Source: Nanoarchaeota archaeon
Lineage (GTDB): Archaea > EX4484-52 > LFW-46
Reading direction: 5' to 3'
Length of the DNA: 6,549 nt
Assembly: GCA_018897155.1 (NCBI GenBank)
Contig: JAHILE010000054.1
Span: 1 to 6,549 of the forward strand
Both the position numbers and the translations under genes were made by a program. The notes beneath the pieces are model-generated. The model worked only from the letters and a program-made list of their open reading frames with translations. It ran no database searches and was not told the origin of the DNA. Positions 733 through 5,965 of this stretch are shown here, piece after piece; within the stretch, counting starts at the first letter, position 1; each line of letters opens with the position of its first letter.

Positions 733-770
733 AGCCCCATGGTGTAGTGGCCAAGCATACGGGCCTTTGG

Positions 771-806
771 AGCAGAGTGAATATTATAAATTTTCTTTGC
801 GAATAT
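771..806 (+). other. Canonical 37/38 intron in tRNA-Gln
   Basis: This 36-nt intron lies one base after the anticodon. AGC is repeated at 771-773 and 807-809, so sequence alone leaves the cut ambiguous by up to three bases, but BHB geometry favours 771-806. The inner helix is GCAGA (772-776) with TTTGC (796-800), including one G-T wobble. The central helix pairs anticodon-loop TTT (766-768) with GAA (801-803), with C765/T804 unpaired. The bulges are GG^A and AT^A. Confidence 0.8.
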
Positions 807-827
807 AGCCTGTGACCGAGGTTCAAA

Positions 828-918
828 TCATGTAATTGCATTGCAAGCTTTTTTCAAGCTCTGCTTGAAAAATCTCGAACGAAAGTGAGAGAATTTCGCA
901 ATGCTCCGCATGCGAAAA
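828..918 (+). other. Non-canonical 59/60 intron in the tRNA-Gln T-loop
   Basis: This 91-nt insertion splits the T-loop between positions 59 and 60. The T stem acts as outer helix. TTC (822-824) pairs with GAA (914-916) as central helix, with A825/C913 unpaired. The bulges are AA^T and AA^T, and CATG (829-832) pairs with CATG (909-912) as inner helix. AAATC is repeated at both ends, so the boundary is chosen by structure. The interior holds a 10-bp hairpin (850-859/863-872), a bulged GNRA hairpin (874-889) and a third hairpin (894-899 plus 901-904, with 908-917) that competes with the BHB pairing. Confidence 0.8.
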
Positions 919-932
919 TCCTCGTGGGGCTA

Positions 933-1055
933 TTTACAAATCCGAAGGATTTGGAAAGCCGCGAGCTCCGCGCCAAATGGTTAATGAGGCGGAGCGACCG
1001 GATTTTTCGCCATTTACTAAATGTATTGGGCGAAAACAGCACAATTATACAATGC
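933..1055. other. Hairpin-rich spacer between tRNA-Gln and tRNA-Gly
   Basis: No convincing gene is present, although 61-codon frames cross it on both strands; these are judged spurious because they also run through the tRNA exons or introns. Three inverted repeats follow one another: CAAATCC-gaa-GGATTTG (937-953), GCTCCGC (965-971) with GCGGAGC (989-995), and TTTTCGCC (1004-1011) with GGCGAAAA (1029-1036). They may be processing or termination structures in a shared tRNA transcript. A TATA-like ATTATAC at 1044-1050 is too close to the tRNA-Gly start to be its obvious promoter, so co-transcription from the tRNA-Gln promoter is possible. Confidence 0.5.
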
Positions 1056-1258
1056 GCGCCGATAGTCTAGTGGTATGATATTGGCCTTCCACGGCTGCAA
1101 AATCAGCAGACATTTTTTGTTTCGCAAGAAACAAAAAAGCCTCAAACGCAAGTGAGAGGACTTTGGGCGACTACATCTTCGATGTAGTCACCTGTTTGGT
1201 GTCGCTGCTTCGCAGCAGAAGAAAGCCGACGGCCCGGGTTCAATTCCCGGTCGGCGCA
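1056..1258 (+). tRNA. tRNA-Gly (anticodon UCC) with a 132-nt intron
   Basis: The exons 1056-1091 and 1224-1258 give a 71-nt cloverleaf. The acceptor GCGCCGA (1056-1062) pairs with TCGGCGC (1251-1257); A1258 is the discriminator and CCA is not encoded. The anticodon stem is TTGGC (1081-1085) with GCCGA (1225-1229), and the anticodon TCC is at 1088-1090. The T arm is CCGGG-TTCAATT-CCCGG (1234-1250). The intron is at canonical position 37/38. A T-rich stretch follows at 1262-1267 and another at 1285-1297, either of which could terminate transcription. The gene ends two bases before the stop codon of the convergent minus-strand reading frame. Confidence 0.93.
1092..1223 (+). other. 132-nt structured intron in tRNA-Gly
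   Basis: The ends form a textbook BHB. Anticodon-loop CTTC (1086-1089) pairs with GAAG (1218-1221), the bulges are CA^C (1090-1092) and AA^A (1222-1224), and the inner helix is GCTGC (1094-1098) with GCAGC (1212-1216). Inside are an 11-bp perfect hairpin with a GCAA loop (1113-1138), a bulged GNRA hairpin (1141-1156), and a 9-bp perfect hairpin GACTACATC-ttc-GATGTAGTC (1169-1189). It is long for an archaeal tRNA intron. No protein of endonuclease size can be encoded in it. Confidence 0.88.
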
Positions 1259-3712: not shown

Positions 3713-3747
3713 ATGCGCTGTTCAAATAATGTTTATTGGCTGGTTTT

Positions 3748-4426
3748 ATGAAGTCCGAAGAGTGTTTGAACATAATTATTTCTGAAATCCTACGTTTGTC
3801 AAAGCAGGTTAAGTGCTTCATAATCGGCATCGGCGGCGGGGTGGGAGTCGGAAAAACAGCGCTTGTAGATGCGCTGAAAGTTTCTTTGGAAGAGAAAGGC
3901 AAAAAGGTTGCGATTCTTCATATGGATGATTTTTTGAATCTGCTGAAAAGCGCAGTTTTATCGAAACGGAATGGGATGAAAGGCATGTGAATTTTGGCGA
4001 GCTGTGAAGAGTGTTTGAGAGCATAAGGTGTGGTGATATTGAGGTAATAAAGCCCAAATATAATCGCGCAACCAGGCTAATAGAAATCGAAACGTTCGTA
4101 CTTTCAGGCATTGAGGTTATCATTTTCGAAGGTCTTTACACAATATTCTTTACACAATATCGAGCGAGGAGCGCCTCGGAAATTTTCTTGAGTTTGTCGA
4201 CCTGCCTGTTTTTATGTCCGCTGAGCTTTCGGATATTAAGCGGTGGCGGTTTTTACAGGAAGAAAAAAAGCCGCATCCAAGAAGCATGGAACGGATGGAG
4301 CGCCACTGGAATCTTGGCATTCTTGATGACTTGAACAGGAACATCCTTCCAACGAAAAGAAACGCTCGTTTCATAGTTTTTGTTGATTCTGCGCATACGT
4401 TCAAAATATCTATTCAACGCATATAA
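3748..4426 (+). pseudogene. Uridine kinase/PRK-like P-loop kinase, inactivated
   Basis: Three frames join into one protein of about 220 residues when three lesions are corrected. It belongs to the P-loop kinase superfamily that includes uridine kinase, phosphoribulokinase and pantothenate kinase, which phosphorylate a small hydroxyl substrate with ATP. Visible are Walker A GGVGVGKT (about 30-37), HMDDF, WDERHVNF, a KPKYNRAT segment, VIIFEGLYT, and a C-terminal NARFIVFVDSAH. The lesions are: a lost T in the T run at 3930-3935, shifting frame; an in-frame TGA at 4005-4007; and a perfect 14-bp tandem duplication (4133-4146 and 4147-4160) that shifts frame again. Removing one copy restores EGLYTISSEERLGNFLEF. 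It ends in TAA at 4424-4426. ATG 3748 is the preferred start; a TTG at 3736 is also in frame. The exact substrate cannot be told. Confidence 0.82.
4133..4160 (+). repeat. 14-bp perfect tandem duplication inside the kinase pseudogene
   Basis: TCTTTACACAATAT occurs at 4133-4146 and again, with no gap, at 4147-4160. Since 14 is not a multiple of three, the second copy throws the kinase out of frame. This looks like replication slippage and is unlikely to be a read error. Confidence 0.95.
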
Positions 4427-5853: not shown

Positions 5854-5965
5854 AGCGGGGTAGTAGTTCATAAAAAATAATACTTCTATGAACTCCCTAA
5901 AGCAGCCTGGAGTGCTCGTTGGGCTCATAACCCAAAGGTCGCTGGTTCAAATCCAGTCCCCGCTA
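5854..5965 (+). tRNA. Initiator tRNA-Met (CAU) with a D-arm intron
   Basis: The acceptor AGCGGGG (5854-5860) pairs with CCCCGCT (5958-5964); A5965 is the discriminator and CCA is not encoded. The anticodon CAT is at 5926-5928 in loop CTCATAA, closed by TTGGG/CCCAA. The three G-C pairs next to the loop and the A1:U72 pair mark it as the initiator. The T arm is GCTGG-TTCAAAT-CCAGT. The D arm is only complete if about 37 nt (5864-5900) is removed, joining G5863 to AGC at 5901 to form stem GAGC/GCTC (3' strand 5914-5917). The mature tRNA would be 75 nt. An intron in the single tRNA needed to start every protein makes its splicing essential. Confidence 0.9.
5864..5900 (+). other. Non-canonical D-arm intron in initiator tRNA
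   Basis: This 37-nt insertion lies between about positions 10 and 11. Its core is an 8-bp perfect stem AGTTCATA (5865-5872) with TATGAACT (5887-5894). A relaxed BHB can be drawn: the central helix GGG (5858-5860) pairs with CCT/CCC bases (5896-5898) including a wobble, T5861/C5895 do not pair, and the bulges are AG^T and AA^A. The exact ends are inferred from restoring the D stem. Confidence 0.72.

Follow-up and report, generated by a model that had tools for sequence, protein, structure and literature searches.

Rickettsia palindromic elements (RPEs) enter genes in frame and measure ~100-150 bp, as summarized in PMC10969869. Haloquadratum walsbyi harbors PATEs and small mobile repeats, archaeal palindromic sequences that are transposase-free, nest in other elements and cause no target duplication; the ends of PATEs are common to IS605-type transposons (PMC3119063). 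REP/BIME sequences with RAYT (PMC3733652; PMC12306157) are short, palindromic, modular, multicopy and partly arranged as inverted pairs; REPs are extragenic. MITEs are recognized by terminal inverted repeats together with a target-site duplication. Transposition of tRNA introns was reported in Thermoproteales by Fujishima et al. 2010, as cited in PMC4090602.

The window analyzed here is a stretch of 6,549 nucleotides, in which the introns of two neighboring tRNA genes each contain a module of two hairpins, H and B. LFW-46, the lineage of its host, has been assigned to p__EX4484-52, the sister group of Nanohaloarchaeota (PMC8561730). The module is very probably one unit of a non-autonomous, interspersed palindromic DNA element. 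The H-B unit occurs in DPANN archaea, in the candidate phylum EX4484-52. By behavior, it is closest to the RPEs, with which it shares palindromic structure, lack of autonomy, multiple copies, in-frame insertion into conserved, mutually unrelated protein genes besides other sites, and clean empty sites in relatives. It differs from them in its unit of ~45-57 bp (48-57 bp for the single units compared with RPEs, 90 bp for a double unit), its two-hairpin H-B structure with tandem G.A mismatches, its archaeal host, and its tRNA-intron copies; the likeness is one of behavior, and the unit is shorter than the RPE range, so that we do not class the element as an RPE. By domain of life, the Haloquadratum PATEs and small mobile repeats are the closest. 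Like PATEs, the unit is archaeal and transposase-free, nests in other elements, and has near-terminal palindromes (H at its start, B at its end) and no significant target duplication; as to a tie to IS605, no copy was found at the ends of the Y1 transposase loci by eye or with the covariance model, and in-frame insertion into many enzymes is not stressed in PMC3119063. The H-B element does not have the repeat and duplication structure of MITEs. With REPs it has in common that it is short, palindromic, modular and multicopy, with copies partly in inverted pairs; in contrast to the extragenic REPs, up to about a quarter of the present copies lie in predicted coding sequence. The occurrence of related introns at different tRNA positions is reminiscent of the Thermoproteales case as cited above, from which the present one differs in its DPANN host and in that the introns themselves are targets of a separate palindromic element. 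No paper describing such elements in DPANN was found in the literature covered, which was partial, and priority is thus unproven.

The first gene of the pair, tRNA-Gln(UUG), occupies 733..932 on the plus strand, where the other parts of the pair and the repeat between them also lie, and contains two introns: an anticodon intron (771-806), whose BHB has one mismatch, and a T-loop intron (828-918) with an inserted H-B. Copy 1 of hairpin H (TTTTTTCAAGC-TCT-GCTTGAAAAA), identified from sequence and fold, spans 849..872, and copy 1 of hairpin B (CTC-GA-AC-GAAA-GT-GA-GAG; CTCGAACGAAAGTGAGAG) spans 874..891, where the covariance model R1 matches at 866-897 with 44.3 bits. The second gene, tRNA-Gly(UCC), occupies 1056..1258 (Rfam RF00005, 46.8 bits) and has an anticodon-loop intron at about 1092-1223. 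Its copy 2 of H (TTTTTTGTTT-CGCAAG-AAACAAAAAA), again from sequence and fold, lies at 1113..1138, and copy 2 of B (CTC-AA-AC-GCAA-GT-GA-GAG; CTCAAACGCAAGTGAGAG) at 1141..1158 is matched by R1 at 1133-1164 with 45.3 bits. ARAGORN detected no tRNA in the window, and Rfam found tRNA-Gly (1056-1258) and missed tRNA-Gln; the call of the latter, predicted from its acceptor stem and a syntenic orthologue with an intronless T-arm in G001, a genome of the same genus, is secure.

The introns, the hairpins H (there called A) and the B elements lie where the first-pass annotation had put them, and the match of 16 out of 18 positions that it gave for the two B copies is the best 18-mer match between the introns, 150 dinucleotide shuffles having reached at most 14. 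Each intron also gave a better fold than any of 200 shuffles (z -3.1 and -5.5). B had been drawn as a stem with a 2-nt bulge; a better description is CTC-GA-AC-GNRA-GT-GA-GAG, whose stem is symmetric and contains tandem G.A/A.G mismatches. Between the two tRNAs lies an intergenic repeat (955..1037) and then a TTTTTCGCC..GGGCGAAAA hairpin. This repeat is missing from the syntenic locus of G001 and has relatives of 72-84% identity elsewhere in the genome (C3, C50, C19, C4 and C29). Model R1 gave no significant match to it in the window. Intergenic short forms bridge it to B, and it seems to be related to B with a longer stem, having a GAGC..GCGA core in an AAAGC..GGATTTT frame.

The module is not confined to this pair. 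A motif search with AAAGCYTCGAACGNNAGTGAGANGA, allowing up to 3 mismatches, returned 13 matches in the genome and 0 in its reversed control. The annotation had proposed a covariance-model search and would have been refuted by a lack of further copies in the genome and relatives; this check, when run, did not refute it. Model R1 of the 18-nt hairpin B, built from 12 copies, finds ~98-115 copies in the 1.43-Mb genome (G000), a count that varies with filters and cut-off, 74 in G001, and 1-13 in each of 16 other genomes of the order; none was found in seven archaea outside the order. The phylum-level genome search returned 34 genomes, every one of which belongs to this order. Exact copies occur in MAGs that bear the names Nanohalarchaeota, Aenigmatarchaeota and uncultured archaeon LFW-46, and there were 0 matches to the exact pattern in viral contigs. 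Rfam, run on the window and some 20 loci, gave only tRNA and rRNA families above gathering scores. Three contig ends of G000 (C2:64-96, C23:38201-38233 and C46:46-78) share an identical H-B sequence, which suggests that the repeats may break the assembly and that the copy number may be underestimated.

Most copies are intergenic, and only three were found in tRNA introns (Gln, Gly, Pro). ORFs predicted with a hexamer gene finder made ad hoc overlap 27 of 90 copies; some of these are doubtful short ORFs, and one copy actually lies in tRNA-Pro. Up to about a quarter of the copies lie inside predicted ORFs. Conserved domains are interrupted in frame, and ten enzyme genes identified by Pfam carry an in-frame copy: KsgA, GatB, a class I aminoacyl-tRNA synthetase (Val/Leu/Ile type), an aminotransferase, MetRS, GatA, PEP synthase, a type I topoisomerase, a family 2 glycosyltransferase and UvrC. 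The alignments of KsgA, GatB, the class I synthetase and the aminotransferase to PDB entries break or show a gap at the insert; the printed PDB alignment of MetRS stops short of the insert, and there the G001 orthologue covers the site. In UvrC (L045:403-2085, minus strand), two B units sit close together and in frame at ~residues 162-195, between the GIY-YIG and UVR domains.

The annotation had seen in the module either a structured, possibly mobile element spreading among tRNA genes or a site bound by some splicing or stability factor. The latter, a functional RNA motif of tRNA introns, would be in keeping with the stable RNA folds of both introns, with the sense orientation of both intron copies, and with the GNRA loops and tandem G.A pairs typical of RNA. 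In single-stranded DNA, too, GNA loops and tandem G.A pairs form stable structures. A strand bias, as expected of an RNA element, was not seen: copies occur on either strand in similar numbers, those outside ORFs are of mixed orientation to neighboring genes with no clear strand preference, and the copies in protein genes and spacers likewise take either strand. Together with the in-frame copies in many enzyme genes, this indicates that the module behaves as moving DNA and not as an RNA signal. As only three of about 100 copies lie in tRNA introns, as the same T-loop intron occurs without the module in tRNA-Glu, and as the loops vary widely, the RNA motif is an exceedingly improbable explanation. 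The idea of a mobile structured element was borne out by empty sites, and it was the restriction to tRNA genes that proved too narrow.

Empty sites of the DNA element are found in protein and tRNA genes alike. The aminotransferase has an exact 57-bp in-frame insert, the family 2 glycosyltransferase a 90-bp in-frame insert that represents a double unit, and MetRS a 54-bp in-frame insert; the G001 orthologue is without the insert in each case. The KsgA insert is likewise missing in G001, and alignments to other relatives split there. We also note that the glycosyltransferase (L192:4103-5245, minus strand) has a second in-frame insert of ~16 residues (VDKEGSTAYISQKFE), additional to the 30-residue palindromic insert and again missing in G001.

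The tRNA pair of G000 was compared with that of G001 by affine-gap alignment. G001 has tRNA-Gln followed by tRNA-Gly in the same order and retains the anticodon intron of tRNA-Gln, and its pair is without the T-loop intron of tRNA-Gln, without the intergenic repeat and without the anticodon intron of tRNA-Gly, which instead carries a D-loop intron. From this comparison of two genomes, the differences at the tRNA sites may reflect either gain in G000 or loss in G001. A further empty site is provided by a paralogue, tRNA-Glu on contig C11 of G000, whose T-loop intron at the same position (CATGCGATTGCATCGCAAGC|TTTTCGATGC..) is devoid of H-B; the H-B of the tRNA-Gln T-loop intron sits at the bar. 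The empty sites of G001 and the tRNA-Glu paralogue argue for mobile, non-autonomous palindromic DNA elements.

The host introns are themselves of the archaeal BHB type as predicted from their junctions. The BHB of the Gln T-loop intron consists of the helix UUCA/CGAA (with one A.C mismatch) and bulges AAU/AAU; that of the Gly intron, assigned by eye, consists of CUUC/GAAG and bulges CAC/AAA. A strict BHB finder overlooked the Gly, Glu and Pro introns because a base next to the helix is unpaired or the register differs, the Gly case being due to one unpaired A. Removal of 828-918 and ~1092-1223 restores intact tRNAs, and the products equal the intronless G001 genes bar one base of the Gln T-loop. 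The third tRNA copy of H-B (C11:5822) belongs to a D-loop intron of tRNA-Pro on C11. Introns akin to the Gln T-loop intron occur in the D-loops of tRNA-Val in G000 and of tRNA-Gly in G001, each missing from the orthologue in the other genome, and the Gln intron is a member of a family that spans the D- and T-loops of several tRNAs. H-B thus lies in a mobile BHB-type intron, one mobile sequence having entered another.

Such introns raise the question of whether the module is a mere passenger of tRNA introns that move by BHB-directed transposition, as reported for Thermoproteales (PMC4090602). The presence of one intron family at the D- and T-loops of different tRNAs, differing between G000 and G001, speaks for this. 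However, most copies lie outside tRNA introns, the three tRNA copies each occupy a different intron and differ in their H stems, and the T-loop intron is also known without the module. The passenger explanation is mostly refuted and very improbable; intron movement accounts for the introns, not for the module. A second, unrelated intron family (CAGTTTCTTTCTC..AAATCTGGGTA..CTCGACTTCGTCGAG..) was observed in both genomes, mostly in the T-loops of numerous tRNAs, Ala, Ile and Asp among them, at L115, L117, L118, L119 and L120 of G000 and at L141, L142, L144 and L148 of G001, with another position in L141; its copies share sequence as if they had been copied between tRNAs. It is conceivable, though rather doubtful, that palindromic elements and non-canonical tRNA introns form one continuum, in which D- and T-loop introns would be two-hairpin insertions with the same T- and A-tract clamps, made spliceable by a BHB that the hairpins supply. 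If so, new archaeal tRNA introns would be born from insertions of palindromic elements.

The unit of the DNA element measures ~45-57 bp and reads T3-6 n..loop..n A3-6 - GC - B - GA, usually with a T-tract 3' of the closing GA. H is an AT-clamped hairpin. In 67 of 89 copies, as against 2 of 89 in the shuffled control, a perfect stem of 6 bp or more terminates precisely at the A-tract in front of B. A further hairpin may follow B and is seen in 25 of 88 copies at the same cut-off vs 2 in shuffled sequence. The tandem G.A mismatches of B are intact in 72 of 84 distinct copies, and the stem types of B covary (CTTC/GATG, CCTT/AAGG, CCTA/AAGG, CCTC/GAGG and CCGA/ACGG), as do its loop-adjacent pairs, GC vs AT. 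The apical part of B ranges from GAA triloops and GNNA loops up to long stems. The same H-GC-B-GA anatomy is present in other families of the order. Units are nested in one another, for example at L060 of G001, and form tandem arrays, with a 57-bp period in C59 and four repeats of 60 bp in G004. A CRISPR-like or integron-like reading of these spaced copies was rejected, since the intervals consist of the same H sequence and therefore represent tandem units.

The H stems differ in sequence at nearly every locus while pairing is kept, and this counts against the element explanation, in that copying of whole units alone fails to explain a variable yet paired H. Local growth without transposition, in which slippage and template switching at T-tracts create and multiply hairpins in place, would fit locus-specific yet perfectly paired stems, and it would also fit the several arrays in which identical H sequences flank B on both sides. 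Clean single inserts of 54-90 bp with a conserved B at unrelated coding sites nevertheless need a donor of B, and local growth is accordingly regarded as highly unlikely.

As for the movement of the palindromic DNA element, new copies would be produced and integrated as DNA, frequently at T-tracts; T-tracts are the insertion sites in the aminotransferase, MetRS and the tRNA introns. The units may be moved by a trans-acting enzyme that recognizes a folded-back strand. The strongest candidate is a Y1 transposase of the IS200/IS605 type, though as an unproven guess. G000 has three Y1 transposase loci (on C40, C35 and C46) and G001 has one, and such loci are missing from most relatives with copies. 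No element was found at the ends of the Y1 loci, as judged by eye and with R1 on partly mapped transposon ends, the one match, 870 bp off, being unrelated. A RAYT-type partner was likewise rejected, as no copies flank Y1 genes. Synthesis by fold-back at insertion is one idea that could explain a variable H beside a constant B. No consistent target-site duplication was seen: the H arm and the downstream sequence share a prefix in 8 of 65 cases vs a permutation mean of 2.7, where the maximum over 2000 permutations was also 8 and the observed value stems partly from tandem copies. An H arm derived from the target, or a target duplication, thus has no significant support, the fold-back idea included, and transposition is unproven by its footprint. 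Copies would persist where they are least harmful, namely in spacers, in RNA that is spliced out, and in frame at tolerant sites of proteins, and no host function needs to be assumed.

The element offers an archaeal counterpart of what is best known from Rickettsia, in that a short palindromic DNA has entered spacers, RNA genes and, in frame, essential protein genes. The tRNA introns caught in gain or loss between close genomes make the origin and movement of archaeal introns testable in one lineage, and the inserted peptides are natural experiments on protein tolerance. Annotation pipelines may mistake the hairpins for structured RNAs or terminators.

Other features of the window include a fragment of a DDE integrase-type transposase (rve) at the contig end (27-497) and a kinase-like P-loop gene (3736-4426), seemingly split into overlapping short frames by pseudogene formation or sequencing errors. 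A Met-type tRNA (anticodon CAU) at 5854-5965 apparently contains a further intron near the start of the D-arm; its G001 orthologue (L147) has a different insert at that place and an anticodon intron.
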